DNA from: Angustibacter sp. Root456
Lineage (GTDB): Bacteria; Actinomycetota; Actinomycetes; Actinomycetales; Angustibacteraceae
Assembly (NCBI RefSeq): GCF_001426435.1
Contig: NZ_LMER01000003.1
Span: 1 to 40,774, forward strand
DNA: 40,774 bases
Direction: 5' to 3'
Shown in pieces: positions 3,161-15,871 of this stretch. Position 1 is the first letter of the stretch; every line of letters starts with the position of its first letter. The notes below the pieces were generated by a model that worked only from the letters and a program-made list of their open reading frames with translations, was not told where the DNA came from and did not search any database. The position numbers and the translations under genes were made by a program.

Positions 3161-4287
3161 CCACCCCACGCAAGCGCCGACGCTTCGGCTCCGTCCGTCA
3201 GCAAGCCAACGGCCGATGGCAAGCCCGCTACAAGGGACCGGACGGCCGAGAGCGTCAGGCAGACCGCACCTTCCCGACCCGCCGCCAGGCCGAGGTCGAA
3301 CTCGACGCCATCGAGCAGCGCATGCGCACGGGCCGCTGGTTCGACCCCAAGGACCAGGCGACCCGGCTCTCCGAGTACGCCGAGCGCGTCATCGCTGGGC
3401 GGACCCTAGCCGTGCGCACTCGCGAGCTGTACGACGACCTCCTCCGGCTGCACATCGTGCCCGTGTTGGGCGACTACCCCATCGGGAAGGTGCGGCCAGC
3501 CGACGTTGAGCGCTGGCGCGCTGGCCGGCTCAAGGTGACAGGAAAGGCCCGTACCCGCCAGGCCTACGCGCTACTGCGCTCGGTGTTCCGCGAAGCGGTG
3601 GACGACGGCCTCGTCCCCAGCAACCCCTGCCGCATCCGTGGGGCCGGCGTCGCCAAGGCGCCCGAGCGCCCCTACGTCGCACCTAAGGAGGCCGCCGCGC
3701 TCATCGCCGCCATGCCCGCCCATATGCACGTGATGACCACCGTCACCCTGTTCGGGCACCTGCGGCTGGGGGAGGTGCTCGGGCTCCGCCGAGGTGACTT
3801 CAACCCGGACGCCCGCACCCTTCGCGTCGAGCGGCAGTTGGTCCGCCTCAAGGACGGGTCGACCCAGATCACCGACACCAAGACGGGGCAGGCTCGGACG
3901 GTCACGCTCCCGCCAGGAGTCGCCGCCGACCTCGCCGAGCACCTGGCCGCGAACCTCGCCCTGCCCTCGGCTCCGATGTTCACCCACCCGAGCGGCCTTC
4001 CACTGGCCCGCCATCACATCGGTCTCGCTTGGCGCAAGGCTCGCGCCGAGGTGGGTCTGCCGACCGTTCATTTCCACGACTTCCGGCACGCCGGACTGAC
4101 GTACGCCGCCCAGGCCGGAGCGACCCTCAAGGAGCTGCAGGCGCGGGCCGGGCACCGCACGGTCGCAGCGAGCATGGTCTACCAGCACGTTGCCGAGAGC
4201 CGTGACGTCGAGATCGCTAACCGGCTGTCCGCGTTCGCCGTGCCGCTGCCCAAGGCGGCCGGCTCGGAGGCGAACTCCACGCGTTAG
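3157..4287 (+). CDS. int: Tyrosine-type site-specific integrase
   Basis: The 376-residue product is a phage/ICE-type tyrosine recombinase. An N-terminal arm-binding region (about 8-60, with GSVRQQANGRWQARYKGPDG) is followed by a SAM-like core-binding domain (about 70-165) and the catalytic domain. The full active-site set is visible: R203 in GHLRLGE, K242 in DTKTG, H307 and R310 in HFHDFRH, H333 in ARAGHR, and the nucleophile Y342 in MVYQH. GTG 3157 is chosen because GAGGA stands 6 bases before it. The gene ends about 115 bases from the 3' end of tRNA-Gly, the classic position for an integrase that recombines within a tRNA gene. It should catalyse integration, and with an excisionase also excision, of the element that extends left of the window. 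It looks intact and functional. Confidence 0.93.
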   Translation: MTTPRKRRRFGSVRQQANGRWQARYKGPDGRERQADRTFPTRRQAEVELDAIEQRMRTGRWFDPKDQATRLSEYAERVIAGRTLAVRTRELYDDLLRLHIVPVLGDYPIGKVRPADVERWRAGRLKVTGKARTRQAYALLRSVFREAVDDGLVPSNPCRIRGAGVAKAPERPYVAPKEAAALIAAMPAHMHVMTTVTLFGHLRLGEVLGLRRGDFNPDARTLRVERQLVRLKDGSTQITDTKTGQARTVTLPPGVAADLAEHLAANLALPSAPMFTHPSGLPLARHHIGLAWRKARAEVGLPTVHFHDFRHAGLTYAAQAGATLKELQARAGHRTVAASMVYQHVAESRDVEIANRLSAFAVPLPKAAGSEANSTR

Positions 4288-8585: not shown

Positions 8586-9869
8586 GTGGCGCGCATCGGT
8601 GACGGTGGTGACCTGCTCAAGTGCTCTTTCTGCGGGAAGAGCCAGAAGCAGGTCAAGAAGCTGATCGCGGGCCCTGGGGTCTACATCTGCGACGAGTGCA
8701 TCGACCTGTGCAACGAGATCATCGAGGAGGAGCTCGCTGAGACCAGCGAGCTCGGCCTCGACGAGCTGCCCAAGCCGCGCGAGATCTTCGACTTCCTCGA
8801 GCAGTACGTCGTGGGCCAGGAGCCCGCCAAGAAGGCGCTGGCGGTCGCGGTCTACAACCACTACAAGCGCATCCAGGCCGGTGAGCCCGCCCGCAAGGGC
8901 GACGAGCCGATCGACCTGGCGAAGTCCAACATCCTGCTGATCGGCCCCACCGGCTGCGGCAAGACGTACCTGGCGCAGACCCTGGCGCGCATGCTCAACG
9001 TGCCCTTCGCCATCGCCGACGCCACCGCGCTCACCGAGGCCGGGTACGTCGGTGAGGACGTCGAGAACATCCTGCTCAAGCTGATCCAGGCCGCTGACTA
9101 CGACGTCAAGAAGGCCGAGACCGGCATCATCTACATCGACGAGGTCGACAAGATCGCCCGCAAGAGCGAGAACCCGTCGATCACCCGCGACGTCTCCGGT
9201 GAGGGTGTGCAGCAGGCGCTGCTGAAGATCCTCGAGGGCACCACCGCCTCGGTGCCGCCGCAGGGTGGGCGCAAGCACCCGCACCAGGAGTTCATCCAGA
9301 TCGACACGACGAACGTGCTGTTCATCGTGGGGGGTGCGTTCGCCGGGCTCGACAAGCTCATCGAGCAGCGCGCGGGAAGGAAGGGCCTCGGCTTCGGTGC
9401 CCAGTTGCACACCGCTGCAGACCCCACGGCCGACTCCTACGCCGACGTCATGCCCGAGGACCTCATGAAGTTCGGGCTGATCCCGGAGTTCATCGGCCGC
9501 CTGCCCGTCATCACGACGGTCTCGAACCTCGACCGCGACGCGCTGGTCAACATCCTCACCCAGCCGCGCAACGCGCTGTCGAAGCAGTACGTGCGGATGT
9601 TCGAGATCGACGGCGTCGAGCTGGAGTTCACCGACGACGCGCTCGAGGCGGTGGCTGACCAGGCCATCCTGCGCGGTACCGGCGCTCGTGGCCTGCGCGC
9701 CATCATGGAGGAGGTGCTGCTGCCGGTGATGTTCGACGTCCCCAGCGACGACGGCATCGCCCGCGTGGTGGTGACCAAGGAGGTCGTGCTCGACAACGTC
9801 AACCCGACGATCGTCCGGCGCGACACCCCGGAGCCGCGCAAGCGCACCCCGCGCGAGAAGTCCGCCTGA
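8586..9869 (+). CDS. clpX: ClpX, AAA+ unfoldase of the ClpXP protease
   Basis: The 427-residue protein has the N-terminal zinc-binding domain with C13, C16, C35 and C38 (substrate and adaptor recognition). The AAA+ module follows: Walker A GPTGCGKT at 120-127, with the Cys common in actinobacteria, and Walker [11 protein letters not shown] near 182. The ClpP-docking loop (GLGFGA) lies near 262. It unfolds tagged substrates and feeds them into ClpP1P2. GTG 8586 is preceded by GGGAGG. The 176-base gap after clpP2 contains no gene. It holds a short CTTCA-A-TGAAG inverted repeat at 8487-8497, so clpX may also have its own promoter. Confidence 0.97.
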
Positions 9870-9876
9870 GCCGGTC

Positions 9877-10560
9877 GTGACCCGCGTCGCCCTCGAACGC
9901 GGGCGGACGTGGACGTTCGCCGCCGCCCTCGACTGGCCCGGCTGGTGCCGTCGGGCCAAGACCCGCGACGGCGACGAGGCGGCGCTCGAGGCGCTGCTCG
10001 CCTACGCCGGCCGGTACGCGCTCGTCGTCGGCGAGGAGTTCGCGCCCGGTGACCTCGAGGTCGTCGGCGCCGTCGCCGGCGACACCACCACCGACTTCGG
10101 CGCCCCGGCCGTGGCCGGTCCCTGGGACGACGTCTCCCTGACCGGTGCGGACGCCGCGCGCCAGGCCGACCTGCTGCAGGCGTGCTGGACGGCGCTCGAC
10201 CACGTCGCCGAGAGCTCGCCGGAGGAGCTGGCCAAGGGTCCCCGCGGCGGCGGCCGCGAGCGCACCGCCATGCTCGACCACGTCCGCGAGGCCGAGCGCG
10301 CCTACGCGCGCAAGCTGGCGATCGCCGTCCCTCCTCGCACGCCCTGGCCCGAGCAGCGGGCGCTCGTCGACGCAGCGGTGCGCTCGGGCGGCACGGGCGG
10401 CGCGTGGCCCCTGCGCTACGGCGTGCGGAGGATCGCGTGGCACGTCCTCGACCACGCCTGGGAGATGCAGGACCGCACCCCCCCCATCCCCCGTGATCAT
10501 GCACGCCAGACCACCCCACCCGCCGTGATCATGCACGCCAGACCACCCCACCCGCCGTGA
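9877..10560 (+). CDS. DinB-like superfamily protein with repeat-derived C-terminus
   Basis: The 227-residue product resembles the uncharacterised DinB/YfiT-like four-helix proteins of actinobacteria. Helical segments include RTAMLDHVREAERAYARKL and WPLRYGVRRIAWHVLDHAWE, whose spaced histidines could bind a metal ion as in DinB-fold thiol-dependent enzymes. The function is otherwise unknown. It starts at GTG 9877, only 7 bases after clpX, and may be co-transcribed with it. The oddity is the end: after the conserved-looking HAWEMQDR the frame runs into 32-bp repeats of the neighbouring cassette. About 22 residues (RDHARQTTPP... to the stop) are encoded by repeat DNA, so the original C-terminus was probably replaced when the repeats arrived. 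Confidence 0.7.
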   Translation: MTRVALERGRTWTFAAALDWPGWCRRAKTRDGDEAALEALLAYAGRYALVVGEEFAPGDLEVVGAVAGDTTTDFGAPAVAGPWDDVSLTGADAARQADLLQACWTALDHVAESSPEELAKGPRGGGRERTAMLDHVREAERAYARKLAIAVPPRTPWPEQRALVDAAVRSGGTGGAWPLRYGVRRIAWHVLDHAWEMQDRTPPIPRDHARQTTPPAVIMHARPPHPP

Positions 10561-10576
10561 TCATGCACGCCAGACC
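10490..10576 (+). repeat. Left arm: three 32-bp units
   Basis: Units start at 10491, 10523 and 10555, exactly 32 bases apart. The first two are identical, and the third is a 22-base piece that ends at the stop codon of the nuclease gene (10577). Each contains TGATCATGCAC. Upstream is a C-rich run (10478-10490) that mirrors the G-rich run outside the right arm. Confidence 0.9.
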
Positions 10577-11509
10577 TCACCAGCGGCGCAGGACGATCTG
10601 CGGCTCCAGCCCGAGCAGCTCCCCGACCGTCCGCTCGAGCCGCAACGACTGACCCCAGACGTGACCCCGGTGGAAGCCGACGACCTGCCACCCGAACTCC
10701 CGGTGCAGTCGGTCGCGGCGCTCGCCGTCGGCCCGCTGCTGGGCGGCGGTGGAGTGGAACTCCTCGCCGTCGTACTCGAAACCCACCCGGCGCGCCGGGT
10801 CCCCGAGGTCCAGTCGGTACACCTGCCGCCCCGACGCGTCGAGGATCGGCACCTGGGCGCACGGTCGAGGGAATCCGGCGTCCAGGATGCGCAGACGCAG
10901 CCACGACTCACCGAAGGACTCCGTGAGCGGCTCGCCGTAGCCGATGAGCTCGCGCGCCTGCGCGGCGCCGCGGTGGCCGGCGAAGCGTTCGAGCTCGCAT
11001 GCGGCCTCGGCCAGGTCGACCAGCGCGAGGTGCGCCGCGCTGTCGATGGCCGCGAGGGCCATGGGCCGCGGCAGCCAGCGGGCCAGGTCGAGCACCGTCC
11101 GCAGGTCGCTCGTGCGCGGCAGCACGAGGTCGTCGACGACGTCGTGGGACGCCAGCGGCGCGGCGTAGCAGCGCAGGCCGGCTCGGCGCACCGGGGTGCG
11201 TCCGGCGGGAACGACGCACTCGACGACGGGCAGCGCGTCCTCTGCGAGGCTCCACACGCGCCCCATCCCGCGCAGCCAGGCCACGGTGCTGCGGCAGAGG
11301 ACGCCGCCCGGCGGCAGCACCAAGGCGGCCGCTGCCGCTCGGGTCTGGACGTCGTCCGGCGCGTTCGCGTCGACGTAGACGCGGTGCAGGACCTCGCGAA
11401 CGGTGCCGGCGGTCACGAGTCGGTGGGCTCGGCGTCCCGTCATCTCTCGGGCGCGCGCGGCGAGGAAGGGGTGTCCGTCATTGAGCACCCTGGCAGCGTC
11501 GTGCACCAC
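10577..11509 (-). CDS. DUF559-type endonuclease-fold protein with AbiEi-like N-terminal domain
   Basis: This 310-residue protein has an N-terminal region (about 1-80) like the winged-helix domain of AbiEi-family antitoxins (AGTVREVLHRVYVDA). A middle helical region follows, and then a C-terminal DUF559 domain related to very-short-patch-repair endonucleases. Candidate PD-(D/E)XK residues are E201 in FGESWLRLR, D234 in VYRLDLGD, and E245 and D247 in FEYDGEE. All are present, so it may cut DNA; no substrate is known. It starts at GTG 11509, and an in-frame stop just upstream limits longer starts. Its stop codon abuts the left repeat and its start lies 27 bases inside the right repeat, so gene and repeats form a unit. 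Such genes are common and multicopy in actinobacteria, but their role is unsettled. Confidence 0.75.
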   Translation of the reverse strand: MVHDAARVLNDGHPFLAARAREMTGRRAHRLVTAGTVREVLHRVYVDANAPDDVQTRAAAAALVLPPGGVLCRSTVAWLRGMGRVWSLAEDALPVVECVVPAGRTPVRRAGLRCYAAPLASHDVVDDLVLPRTSDLRTVLDLARWLPRPMALAAIDSAAHLALVDLAEAACELERFAGHRGAAQARELIGYGEPLTESFGESWLRLRILDAGFPRPCAQVPILDASGRQVYRLDLGDPARRVGFEYDGEEFHSTAAQQRADGERRDRLHREFGWQVVGFHRGHVWGQSLRLERTVGELLGLEPQIVLRRW

Positions 11510-11536
11510 GACGTCTGGCCGTGCGCGTCATCCACA

Positions 11537-11596
11537 GGGGTGGTCTGGCGTGCATGATCACGGCGGGTGGGGTGGTCTGGCGTGCATGATCACGGG
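11537..11596 (-). repeat. Right arm: two 32-bp-spaced units, inverted
   Basis: Two inverted copies of the same unit start at 11537 and 11569. Together they equal the reverse complement of 10490-10549 with no mismatch over 60 bases. Confidence 0.92.
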
Positions 11597-11637
11597 CGGG
11601 GAGGGGGCAGGCGGGGAGGGGGGCAGGGGGGAGAGGG
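11594..11637 (+). other. G-rich tract with G-quadruplex potential
   Basis: The plus strand carries at least seven runs of three to six G separated by one to four bases (GGGCGGGGAGGGGG, then further runs to GAGAGGG). This fits the intramolecular G-quadruplex pattern several times over. It lies between the right repeat arm and the stop of the GGDEF-EAL gene. It mirrors a C-run outside the left arm. Confidence 0.6.
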
Positions 11638-11640
11638 CGG

Positions 11641-13122
11641 TCAGGCGGGGAGGGTGGCCCCGTCGGTCGAGTCCTGGGTGTCGCTGGGGTCATCGGCGAC
11701 GGCGGGACGGCGCAGCCGGCCCGCCGCGTGCTCGCTGGCCCACTCGAGCACCTCGGCCGCCACCATGGGGCGGGCGAACCAGAAGCCCTGCAGGTCGTCG
11801 CAGTCCATCTCCGACAGCCGGCTCGCCGTGGCCTCGGTCTCGACGCCCTCGGCGACGATCGTGAGGCCGAGGCGGTGGCCGAGCTCGATGATCGAGGTGA
11901 CGACGGCGTCGTCGTTGGGGGAGCGCTCGAGCGCGGTGATGAACTGGCGGTCGATCTTCAGCTGGTGCACGGGGAGCCCGCGCAGCTGGCTCAGGCTCGT
12001 GTAGCCGGCGCCGAAGTCGTCGACCGACACCTGGATCCCGCGGTCGCGCAGTGCCTCGACGACGGCGCGTGCGGTCTCGGGGTTGTCGGTGACGGCGCTC
12101 TCGGTGATCTCGAGGACGAGCAGCTCGGCTGGCCAGCGGTGCAGGGCCAGCACCTCCTCGACGATGCCGAGCAGGCCGAACTCGAGCGACACCGGCGAGA
12201 TGTTCACGGCGATGGACGCCTCGAGCCCCTGCGCCCGCCACCGCGAGGCGTCGCGGACGGCGGTGAGCAGCACCCAGCGCGTGAGGGCGTGGATCAGGCT
12301 GGTGCGCTCGGCGATCGGGATGAACTCGGCCGGCAGCAGCAACCCGCGCTCGGGGTGCTCCCAGCGCAGCAGCGCCTCGAAGCCCGCGAGCTCGTGGCCG
12401 GTGGCCCGGATGACGGGCTGGTAGCGCACGTGCAGCTGGTCGTCGAGCATCGCCTCACGCAGGTGGGCGAGGGTCTCGAGCCGGTCGGTGGAGTGGTCGT
12501 CGTAGGCCGGGTCGTAGGTCGCGACACCGGACCGCGAGCGCTTGGCCTGGTACATCGCGACGTCGGCGTGCTGCATGAGGTCGTTGAGCGTGCGGCCGTC
12601 CTGCGGCGCCACCGTGACGCCGATGCTGGCGCGGATGTCGATCGAGACACCTCGCGTGCGGAACTCGTTGAGCGTCAGGGCGCCCAGGATCCGCTTGGCC
12701 CGCACGCTCGCGCCCGACATGTTGATCGGGCCGCGGATCAAGATCGCGAACTCGTCCCCACCCAGCCGGGTCACCAGCGAGTCGCTGCCTGCCCCGGCCA
12801 CCAGCTGATGGGCCACCTCCACCAGCACCTCGTCACCGGCGACGTGCCCCAGGGTGTCGTTGACGTCCTTGAACCCGTCCAGGTCGACCAGCAGCAGGGC
12901 GGGGCCGTGGCTGCCGTTGCCGTCGAGGTCGTCCAGCCCGGCGAGCACCTGCTCGGCCGCCTCCGCGAGCAGCGTGCGGTTACCCAGCTGGGTCAACGGG
13001 TCACGGCGCGCCACCCGCTCGCGTTCGCGGTCGCGCAGCACCAGCAGCACAGCAAGGGCAGCGGCGGACGCGACCGCCACGACCACGCAGACGGTCGTGA
13101 CGACCAGAGCGATCCCACCCAT
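11641..13122 (-). CDS. Membrane-anchored GGDEF-EAL protein (c-di-GMP synthesis and breakdown)
   Basis: The 493-residue protein has one N-terminal transmembrane helix (about 4-29), a diguanylate cyclase domain (about 38-205) and a phosphodiesterase domain (about 215-470). The GGDEF motif is intact at 121-125. The EAL side keeps E249 in FEALLRW, N307, E338 in LEIT, D368-D369 in DDFGAGYTS, K389 and the EGVE loop, so both halves look active. No RxxD inhibitory site precedes GGDEF, and there is no PAS or other sensory domain, so the signal input is not evident. ATG 13122 has GGAGGG nine bases before it on the minus strand. It would tune cytoplasmic c-di-GMP at the membrane. Confidence 0.92.
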   Translation of the reverse strand: MGGIALVVTTVCVVVAVASAAALAVLLVLRDRERERVARRDPLTQLGNRTLLAEAAEQVLAGLDDLDGNGSHGPALLLVDLDGFKDVNDTLGHVAGDEVLVEVAHQLVAGAGSDSLVTRLGGDEFAILIRGPINMSGASVRAKRILGALTLNEFRTRGVSIDIRASIGVTVAPQDGRTLNDLMQHADVAMYQAKRSRSGVATYDPAYDDHSTDRLETLAHLREAMLDDQLHVRYQPVIRATGHELAGFEALLRWEHPERGLLLPAEFIPIAERTSLIHALTRWVLLTAVRDASRWRAQGLEASIAVNISPVSLEFGLLGIVEEVLALHRWPAELLVLEITESAVTDNPETARAVVEALRDRGIQVSVDDFGAGYTSLSQLRGLPVHQLKIDRQFITALERSPNDDAVVTSIIELGHRLGLTIVAEGVETEATASRLSEMDCDDLQGFWFARPMVAAEVLEWASEHAAGRLRRPAVADDPSDTQDSTDGATLPA

Positions 13123-13282: not shown

Positions 13283-15871
13283 CTACAACGCGGCGCCCGA
13301 GCGCGAGCCGGCGTCCTGCTCACCGAGCTGGACGTCGGTCACCGTGGGCTCGCCCTCGCCGCTCACCAGCTCGAGCTGCTCGATGCGCCCTGTGGCCCGC
13401 AGGTCGGCCTCGGCCGCGCGCAGCCGGGGCAGATCGGCGTCCGTGGCGGCGATCACCGCTCGGGTCACCGGGGTGCGCTGCGAGACCTTGGCCTGCGACT
13501 TGGCACCTCGCACGCCCGCCAGCGCGGCCGACACGACGGTCAGCAGGGCGGCGTCGCCGTCCGTCACGGCGGGCACCGCGCGCTCGAGCTCGGCCACGGT
13601 CGGCCAGGCGCTGCGATGCACCGAGCCCTCCTGCCACCACGACCACGCCTCCTCGGTGACGAACGGCATGATCGGTGCGAGCAGGCGCAGCTGCACCGAC
13701 AGCGCGGTGGCGAGCGCGGTGCGCGCGGACGCCGCACCCGGCCCGTCGCCGTACGCGCGCTCCTTGACCAGCTCGAGGTAGTCGTCGCAGAAGGTCCAGA
13801 AGAAGCGCTCGGTGGTCTCCAGAGCCCGCGTGTAGTCGAAGGCGGCGAACGCCTCGCCGGTCTCGCGCACGACGTCGGCCAGCGCGGCCAGCATCGCCGT
13901 GTCGAGTGGCTCGGTGACCGGCCCGGCGTCCAGGCTCGCACCGGCGCCGAGCACGAACTTGCTGGCGTTGAGCACCTTGATGGCCAGGCGGCGGCCGACC
14001 TTCATCTGGCTCTCGTCGAACGGCGAGTCCATGCCGGGGCGGGCCATCGCCGCGCGCCAGCGCACCGCGTCGGTGCCGAACTTCTCGAGGATCTCGGTGG
14101 GCACGACGGCGTTGCCCTTGGACTTGCTCATCTTCTTGCGGTCGGGGTCGACCACGAAGCCGGAGATCATCGAGCGGGCCCAGGGCAGCGACCCGTTCTC
14201 GTAGTGGGCCCGCACCACCCGGGAGAACAGCCAGGTGCGGATGATCTCGTGGGCGTGGGTGTTGAGGTCCATCGGGAACGTGCGCGCGAACAGGTCAGGG
14301 TCACGCTCCCAGCCGCACGCGATGTGGGGCGTGAGGGACGACGTCGCCCAGGTGTCCATGACGTCGGGGTCGCCGACGAAGCCGCCGGGCACGCCGCGCT
14401 GGTCGTTCGTGAAGCCCGGTGCCGGGTCGGACGACGGGTCGACCGGCAGCGCGGACTCGTCGGCGACGATCGGCTCGGAGTAGTCGATCTCACTGGCCTG
14501 GTCGAGGCGGTACCAGACGGGGAAGGGCACGCCGAAGAAGCGCTGTCGGCTGATCAGCCAGTCGCCGTTGAGACCGCCCACCCAGTTCTCGTAGCGGTGG
14601 GCCATGAACTCCGGCACGAACTTGAGCTCGCGCCCGCGCTCGAGGAACGTCGCCTTCAGCTCGGGGTCGCGCCCGCCGTTGCGGATGTACCACTGCCGGC
14701 TGGTGACGATCTCGAGCGGCTTGTCGCCCTTCTCGAAGAAGTTCGCCATGCGCTGAGTGGGCGTCGGCTCACCCTCGAGGTCGCCGCTGTCGCGCAGCGC
14801 CTGCACCACGGCCTCGCGCGCCGAGAACGTCGTCCTGCCGGCCAGCTCGCCGTACAGCTCGCGGCCGGAGTCGGTGGGCAGCCACTGCGGCACGTCGCGC
14901 AGGATCCGCCCGTCTCGCCCGACCACCGCGCGCGTGGGCAGCTGCAGCTCGCGCCACCACAGGACGTCGGTCAGGTCACCAAAGGTGCAGCACATGGCGA
15001 TACCGGCGCCCTTGTCCATCTCCGCCGCGGGGTGCGCCAGCACGGGCACCTCGACGTCGAACAGGGGCGTGCGCACGGTGGTGCCGAACAGCGCCTGGTA
15101 GCGCTCGTCGTCCGGGTGGGCGATGAGCGCCACGCAGGCCGCGATGAGCTCAGGCCGGGTCGTCTCGATGTGGACGTCGCCGGCCGGGCCGTGGAAGGCG
15201 ACGCGGTGGTAGAAGCCGGGGTACTCGCGCGCCTCGAGCTCGGCCTGCGCGACCGCGGTCTGGAACGTCACGTCCCACAGGCTGGGCGCCTCGCTCTGGT
15301 AGGCCTCACCGCGGGCGAGGTTGCGCAGGAAGGCTCGCTGCGCCACCGCCCGGGAGTCGTCGCTGATCGTCTCGTACTGCGTCGACCAGTCGACCGACAG
15401 GCCGAGGTGGCGCAGCAGCTCCTCGAACGCCTTCTCGTCCTCGACGGTGAGGCGGCTGCACAGCTCGATGAAGTTCGGCCGGCTGATCGGCACCTGCTTC
15501 TTGGGGTCGGGCTTGGCCGGCGGCTCGAAGTCGGGGTCGTACGGCAGCGAGGGGTCGCAGCGCACGCCGAAGTAGTTCTGCACGCGGCGCTCGGTCGGAA
15601 GGCCGTTGTCGTCCCAGCCGATGGGGTAGAAGACCTGCTTGCCGGTCATCCGCTGGTAGCGCGCGATGAGGTCTGTGTGCGTGTAGCTGAACACGTGCCC
15701 GACGTGCAGGCTGCCGCTCACGGTCGGCGGGGGAGTGTCGATCGAGAAGACCTGCTCGCGCGGCGCCGTCCGGTCGAAGGTGTAGGTGCCCTGCTCGGCC
15801 CACGCGGCTACCCAGCGGCTCTCGAGTCCGTCGAGGGTCGGCTTCTCGGGCACCTGGGGCGTCGTCGGCAT
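13283..15871 (-). CDS. valS: Valyl-tRNA synthetase, type 2
   Basis: This class I aminoacyl-tRNA synthetase (862 residues) charges tRNA-Val. The HIGH motif is HVGH (56-59), and the KMSKS motif KKMSKSKGN lies near 580. The CP1 editing domain lies between them, and the anticodon-binding domain follows. The [20 protein letters not shown] segment and the lack of a C-terminal coiled coil match the type 2 ValS group of HAMAP as I recall it, not the E. coli-like type. ATG 15871 has GGGAGA nine bases upstream. The 160-base gap between its stop and the GGDEF-EAL gene (13123-13282) holds no gene I can support and probably carries the promoter of the latter. Confidence 0.96.

Follow-up and report, generated by a model that had tools for sequence, protein, structure and literature searches.

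The locus described here raises the question of how a single nuclease gene is related to the perfect inverted repeats that box it in. The window that we analysed is a stretch of 40,774 nucleotides from Angustibacter sp. Root456 (own genome, G000; the sister species is G001). Two 60-bp arms, at 10490-10549 on the forward strand and 11537-11596 on the reverse strand, point inward at one gene. They are identical over exactly 60 bases, where the identity ends, and their inverted-alignment score was 60, compared with 15 for the best of 100 shuffles. Coordinates and inverted alignment thus confirm the first-pass annotation, which had described identical arms in inverted orientation with one gene between them.

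The repeat unit is 32 bp long with a 13-base core, GTGATCATGCACG. The left array (10493-10576, forward strand) consists of two full units and a partial third, with cores at 10493-10505, 10525-10537 and 10557-10569. The right array and arm (11537-11596, reverse strand) hold two units running inward to the gene, with cores at 11549-11561 and 11581-11593. The tandem 32-bp organisation described before held for both arms; the partial third left unit had been overlooked. Between the arrays lies the cassette gene (10577-11509, reverse strand; 310 aa), which encodes an AbiEi-like part and a Vsr-type PD-(D/E)XK nuclease domain. Both of its ends were as reported: the stop adjoins the third left unit (10576/10577), and 27 bases separate the GTG start from the right array. 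Allowing up to two mismatches, the core motif occurred five times in the window (0.13 expected). Chance as the source of the repeats was ruled out by the motif counts, a reversed-core count of 0 and the flanks of control genes (see below). No Rfam match was found at gathering scores in positions 10000-12000.

A neighbouring gene at 9877-10560 (forward strand, no Pfam match) has its predicted stop codon, 10558-10560, within the third left unit. The repeat units encode its predicted C-terminus as well as the stop codon, so array growth may have altered the end of the neighbour protein. Also nearby are clpX (8586-9869, forward strand) and a gene for a valS-like class I tRNA synthetase (13283-15871, reverse strand; Pfam tRNA-synt_1 and Anticodon_1, the name valS being a reading), together a cassette neighbourhood conserved in two other families.

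The encoded protein was compared with known structures using a predicted model (mean pLDDT 88). Residues ~1-193 were AbiEi-like (6y8q, Z 8.1; Foldseek E 1.3e-5). Since a Z near 8 can reflect a common arrangement, this call also leans on PADLOC, where the window protein matched AbiEi at 1.5e-7, and on Pfam matches of relatives. For residues ~196-301 the best structural match was the catalytic domain of I-Bth0305I (Z 10.3); NGO0050 gave Z 9.8 and Vsr (1cw0) gave Z 9.0 over 98 residues. Pfam found only MTES_1575 in the window protein itself, at a sub-threshold E of 0.0018, and the best match in a sequence search of the PDB had an E of only 0.26. Among 24 family members including the window protein, 22 matched MTES_1575, 16 AbiEi_1, seven DUF559 and five AbiEi_4 (E ≤ 0.01). 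With these matches and the PADLOC result, the earlier call of a PD-(D/E)XK nuclease with an AbiEi-like N-terminus is reasonable. Residues E197, E201, D234, E245, D247, H252 and D261 were invariant across 19 core members, and these acidic and histidine residues of the nuclease domain are probably catalytic. dN/dS was 0.05-0.40 for homologue pairs of 62-95% identity, some gene starts and identities being approximate. The six neighbour genes scanned with Pfam comprised ClpX, EAL/GGDEF, a tRNA synthetase and MOSC, the other two having no match at all; none of the six matched an AbiEii toxin or a methylase.

Whether the unit also occurs away from the cassette, a question raised by the first-pass annotation, was answered in the own genome, where solo copies, pairs and arrays were all found. 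GTGATCATGCACG has 99 copies (49 and 50 by strand) in 3.84 Mb, and the reversed control has 0. The surroundings of all 99 copies were included in the analysis. With a slightly looser core, 54 of 57 repeat clusters were intergenic, as placed by a home-made gene caller based on codon usage. These 54 clusters lie in 22 convergent, 24 tandem and 8 divergent gaps, compared with 40, 134 and 56 in a background of 230 gaps that includes the repeat-bearing ones. Units beside a gene end ran in the sense direction in 43 cases and otherwise in 25, and in eight cases the TGA inside the unit's GTGATC is the predicted stop of the gene. The arrangements comprised head-to-head pairs ~36 bp apart, tail-to-tail pairs, tandem arrays (period ~32-34) and solo units.

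The unit had been said to form no hairpin by itself, and this was borne out for a single window unit (-0.6 kcal/mol, no fold), which rules out the single unit as a terminator. Paired units do fold: two intact head-to-head pairs form hairpins, one of 21 bp (-28.7 kcal/mol, z -11) and one of 23 bp (-28.9 kcal/mol, z -9), and a third pair forms a 19-bp hairpin with a mismatch. Paired units could therefore act as transcription terminators. We also observed a conserved element of ~100 nt that begins TGGGGAGGATCACTNCA and contains GGGGCACCC and GGGTGCC. It follows nine unit clusters of the own genome, directly after the last unit (L044, L055, L057, L063, L065, L070, L072, L076 and L086), and occurs without a unit at L060:4797 and L070:13487. 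The L065 copy had no Rfam match, and the pattern used found no copy in the fetched G001 stretches.

Other genes of the family, across Actinomycetota, turned out to be boxed in the same way. Among 29 homologous genes, 23 had inverted flanks scoring at least 20 (350-base flanks). A scan of named genomes (91 relatives, 80 loci kept, five of them with flanks that were too short) left 75 loci, 50 of which scored at least 20 and 60 of which beat all 60 shuffles (450-base flanks; in both sets the shuffles preserve base composition only). None of 224 other genes on 21 stretches, drawn from the window's relatives and the own genome only, reached 20 (350-base flanks). The two fractions are not independent because nine places occur in both sets (L093=L143, L095=L142, L099=L156, L101=L191, L102=L170, L110=L141, L112=L168, L113=L175 and L114=L140). 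L102 and L113 scored low in the smaller set because the match started inside the gene; the same places (L170, L175) score 31 and 32 in the larger one. A second measure, repeated units on both sides, was applied to 89 loci after removal of L168 and L191. It reached at least 70 at 43 of them and at 1 of 204 control genes, and at least 60 at 53 loci and 4 controls; the control was unclean at 40-44. At loci scoring at least 54, copies were as numerous 3' of the gene as 5' of it (206 and 206).

The unit itself varies. Many loci of the window's order have GTGATC-type units, mostly of period 26-45 (16 in G077), and the same order also has other words (L103, period 22; L105, period 19). The period is mostly 21-22 in Nocardioidaceae and Williamsia loci and 18 in one Georgenia locus. 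Scores below 20 were found at 25 of the 75 loci overall, and at seven of the eight Kribbella-titled loci. One Kribbella homologue, L145, has a weak inverted pair (2920-2948 and 4023-4051, beginning TGTGATCATTCGCC) that the flank score did not detect, hinting at decayed arrays. Of 12 more distant homologues (from G017, G034, G049, G078 and G092), five had inverted flanks of at least 20, from G034, G049 and G092. At L258, L260, L266 and L268, also more distant homologues, the inverted flanks read as near-complete palindromes on a side, which by eye looks like a variation on this arrangement. The own genome has three distant paralogues of the cassette gene (29-35% identity), with inverted-flank scores of 23, 22 and 10 and no GTGATC-type unit within 1.5 kb of any of them.

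We then compared gene and repeats among genomes. The cassette gene was found at E ≤ 1e-20 in 19 of 119 genomes (the own and 118 relatives), with 1-4 matches each. A GTGATC-unit pattern, GTGATCWWGSAM, which was designed after viewing units of gene-bearing genomes and whose counts include cassette copies, had 37-375 copies in 13 genomes and at most 15 in the other 106. The gene is present in 12 of the 13 many-copy genomes and in 7 of the 106 others, leaving 99 gene-negative genomes below a cut-off of 20 copies that was picked after the counts were known (12/7/1/99, one-sided Fisher p 6.5e-11, uncorrected for phylogeny). The seven gene-bearing genomes with 0-10 copies have flanking repeats of another form, or none seen. 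In G034, which has 151 dispersed GTGATC units, the gene search gave no match at E ≤ 1e-20. Around the five more distant homologues present there no array of GTGATC units was seen, one lone GTGATCAAG match apart, and the palindrome flanking one of these homologues (L266) contains GTGATCATC. The G034 units (places in L270-L272) are either an orphan repeat population or the sign of an assembly gap.

Similar differences were seen within genera. In genus g16, G077 carries the gene and 123 copies, and genomes without the gene have 2 (G016), 2 (G033), 7 (G048) and 6 (G105); G091 has the gene with another unit, GTGATCTTCCAC, and 10 copies of GTGATCWWGSAM. Counted together with the copies at the cassettes, a Williamsia unit pattern occurred 16 times in the genome of L200, 36 times in that of L212 and 43 times in that of L213. 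The genomes of L204 and L209, which are Williamsia with a different cassette unit, gave 1 and 0 copies, and the Gordonia genome of L199 gave 0. For the second cassettes of two genomes, the unit pattern turned up just 8 copies in G009 and 4 in G100, and in either genome three of these belong to the cassette itself. In 12 random 20-kb stretches of gene-bearing genomes, two contained units (4 and 1), all of them intergenic and cassette-like. The first-pass annotation had named outcomes fatal to its idea, namely a repeat found nowhere else, random flanking of unrelated genes, or all related strains having the gene at this locus without repeats; none of these turned up. The repeats flank other genes of the family, in the overlapping sets given above.

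Units followed their own gene. Unit similarity was 14.1 for cassettes at the same site in another genome (13 pairs) and 8.6 for those at another site in the same genome (9 pairs). Unit similarity was correlated with protein identity across 53 cassettes (rho 0.32, reached in 0 of 2000 label permutations), with some gene starts, and protein identities resting on match starts, being approximate. G018 has three cassettes with three different units. Of 35 GTGATC sites sampled there, on 18 stretches outside the cassettes at the first listed of 95 places, 27 differed from one of the three cassette units at no more than three positions (16, 3 and 8; chance 0.4%). The other eight fitted none of the three, and by eye some are chance or genic. 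A fourth unit form in G018, near GTGATCATGSAATCCCGCCA (L281, L290, L297), resembles the G004 cassette unit; no cassette for it was found in the fragmented assembly. Gene-unit covariation partly reflects shared descent, but the presence of several units within one genome weakens descent as the sole cause of the match there; elsewhere it may suffice.

The sister species made change at dispersed sites visible. In G000, 83 of 94 dispersed units were nearer the G000 cassette unit than that of G001, and in G001, 75 of 78 were nearer the G001 cassette unit, 68 of them being identical to it over 20 bases. Only 2 of the 94 units in G000 had such 20-base identity with their cassette unit; the commonest dispersed suffix there, CCAGCGC (52 of 94), is two bases off the cassette's CCAGACC. 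Orthologous gaps held units in both species in six cases, in G000 only in two, in G001 only in two and in neither in 31; these counts give no rates because the stretches were chosen for unit presence in one species. One such gap has 1 base in G000 and, in G001, spans 61 bases that include a unit pair. All six gaps filled in both species had the suffix of each species' own type. That common sites carry different suffixes suggests that the repeat population was converted as a whole, and repeated insertion at preferred sites is a possible alternative to conversion. As a separate observation, the L240 gap, orthologous to L051:3022-3093, has a unit pair in G000 and 62 bases of a different hairpin-like sequence, with no unit, in G001.

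At the loci compared, the cassette itself mostly does not move. clpX and valS also flank the gene in G004, G009 and G072, and both recur at a Quadrisphaera granulorum locus (among the rows listed). The window cassette lies at an old site near clpX/valS, common to two other families, and the units of cassettes at this site differ from family to family. In G001 the cassette is at another position, where one neighbour looks by eye like a P450 gene and the other like a Rieske oxygenase gene. G001 showed no clean empty site for the cassette, because the window site is a synteny breakpoint there, the region being rearranged. Units border the cassette gene, but a filled/empty pair for the gene was not found. 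No target duplication was seen at the cassette, and empty sites were found for dispersed units only. The self-spreading cassette put forward by the first-pass annotation is therefore unsupported: the paralogues are distant and without GTGATC-type units, and the cassette occupies the old clpX/valS site.

Most of the sampled members of the gene family, then, are boxed by inward repeats whose unit differs by lineage and, in genomes with several cassettes, follows the gene, not the genome. Close variants of the unit are dispersed, mainly intergenically, in the genomes covered; orthologous gaps may be filled or empty, and sites shared between the sister species have the own-species suffix. It is these dispersed variants, together with the related genes' own repeats, that make gene and repeats look like a matched pair. 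We consider it probable that the cassette encodes the enzyme dedicated to a dispersed family of repeats, acting through a nuclease-repeat mechanism. Weighing against this are the G034 units without a matching cassette, the loci with low flank scores, the difference between the commonest dispersed suffix and the cassette unit in G000, the low copy numbers in G009 and G100 and the small number of random stretches with units. The AbiEi-like part would bind the unit and the Vsr/homing-endonuclease-like domain would nick or cut at it, possibly at the GTGATC start that units share or in the hairpin of head-to-head pairs. Repair templated by another unit would place new units at gene ends and convert old ones to the current sequence, so that the repeat population would evolve with its enzyme. 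The enzyme gene would be mostly vertically inherited. The broader proposal is evenly balanced in our judgement: a widespread class of actinobacterial repeat systems, REP-type but HUH-free and of independent origin, in which a Vsr/homing-endonuclease-like PD-(D/E)XK nuclease with an AbiEi part seeds, maintains and rewrites its intergenic repeats, some hundred sites changing sequence together as enzyme specificity drifts. On the evidence at hand we rate the real and recurrent association as a new kind of enzyme-repeat pair.

A rival reading is a regulon that serves the host. The protein would then be a DNA-binding factor and the units bidirectional terminators or hairpins at mRNA ends, with selection rather than conversion by the nuclease matching the sites to the protein. 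Many units occupy convergent gaps and units often directly follow a stop codon; when paired, they fold into strong hairpins. The cassette gene is under purifying selection, and AbiEi proteins bind inverted repeats, according to the relevant part of PMC7319586. However, ~80-90 sites that differ as a group in suffix between sister species are hard to achieve site by site, and the filled and empty orthologous gaps and the conserved acidic residues of the nuclease domain also weigh against a regulon, which we regard as unlikely. More doubtful still is a self-regulated toxin-antitoxin or defence gene, with the arrays as operators of the AbiEi-like regulator and the dispersed units as decoys or self-marks. 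It would account for the AbiEi part, but 3'-side arrays are as common (206 and 206 copies), Pfam gave no AbiEii toxin or methylase match in the six neighbours and divergent genes flank only 8 of 54 intergenic clusters. Finally, the cassette might be an insertion sequence with array-like ends, and the solo pairs MITEs derived from it by internal deletion. Head-to-head pairs do resemble the cassette minus its gene, and the cassette is at a different place in the sister species. Such a transposon is nevertheless hard to credit with a cassette at conserved sites across families (rows listed), 1-4 gene matches per gene-bearing genome at E ≤ 1e-20 and no target duplication seen.

Returning to the enzyme-repeat pair, we looked for comparable systems in the literature. 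No open PMC paper combined 'DUF559' with 'inverted repeats', and none tied DUF559 or MTES_1575 to flanking or dispersed DNA repeats in its title or the start of its abstract. The passage concerned of a paper on tandem repeats in Borg elements has MTES_1575 merely in a protein table. Further searches of open PMC papers gave no comparable system among the matches listed, and the letters of the unit motif led to an ArgR site table and to matches unrelated by title. In the papers covered, the one enzyme class linked to REP-type repeats is RAYT with its tyrosine-transposase kin, some REPs having no known enzyme (part of PMC3733652). A second, unrelated enzyme class would, if true, mean that enzyme-driven repeat populations arose more than once. 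It would also give DUF559/AbiEi fusion genes a role and account for one source of the intergenic hairpins that these actinobacteria have. The many natural pairs of enzyme and lineage-specific site would lend themselves to the study of how DNA specificity evolves.

Several known systems share single features with the window cassette. The Vsr endonuclease and the Caulobacter DUF559 protein VsrA have a nuclease fold like that of the C-terminal domain; Vsr is not known to include an AbiEi-like part. Among structures, the homing endonuclease I-Bth0305I matches the catalytic domain best (Z 10.3). Enzymes of that kind propagate the gene that encodes them, whereas in the present system it is the repeats that are scattered, and the gene mostly keeps its place. 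The passage on VsrA in PMC12907096 links this Vsr-like protein to the SOS response and mentions no repeat association. AbiEi type IV antitoxins have a fold like residues 1-193 (Z 8.1) and bind inverted repeats (PMC7319586, in the part concerned), but the window protein is fused to a nuclease domain and an AbiEii match is absent among its six neighbours. Terminal inverted repeats are common to the cassette and to insertion sequences and MITEs. TIRtrons likewise have a gene between terminal inverted repeats, and some of these repeats make up a dispersed family as well; their enzyme, unlike the PD-(D/E)XK protein of the window, is a tyrosine transposase (sections of PMC3733652).

The closest likeness is to RAYT (TnpAREP) and its REP/REPIN sequences. 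As set out in parts of PMC8266576 and PMC3733652, in REPtrons the enzyme gene is likewise boxed by the repeat, extragenic copies are dispersed, often as inverted hairpin pairs, and the repeats are enzyme-specific and co-evolve with the enzyme. The REPtron feature of repeats that both flank the enzyme gene and are dispersed extragenically was found here too. The analogy with REP/RAYT drawn in the first reading of the locus fits in anatomy and co-evolution, but the enzyme is unrelated: RAYT is an HUH Y1 transposase and the window enzyme PD-(D/E)XK/AbiEi. Y1_Tnp (PF01797) had 0 matches in the own genome and was found in 5 of 14 control genomes. REPs have a GTAG or CGTC tag and a palindromic single unit (same part of PMC3733652), whereas the window unit starts with GTGATC and forms no hairpin alone. 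By this comparison, the system would work like a REPtron without being one.
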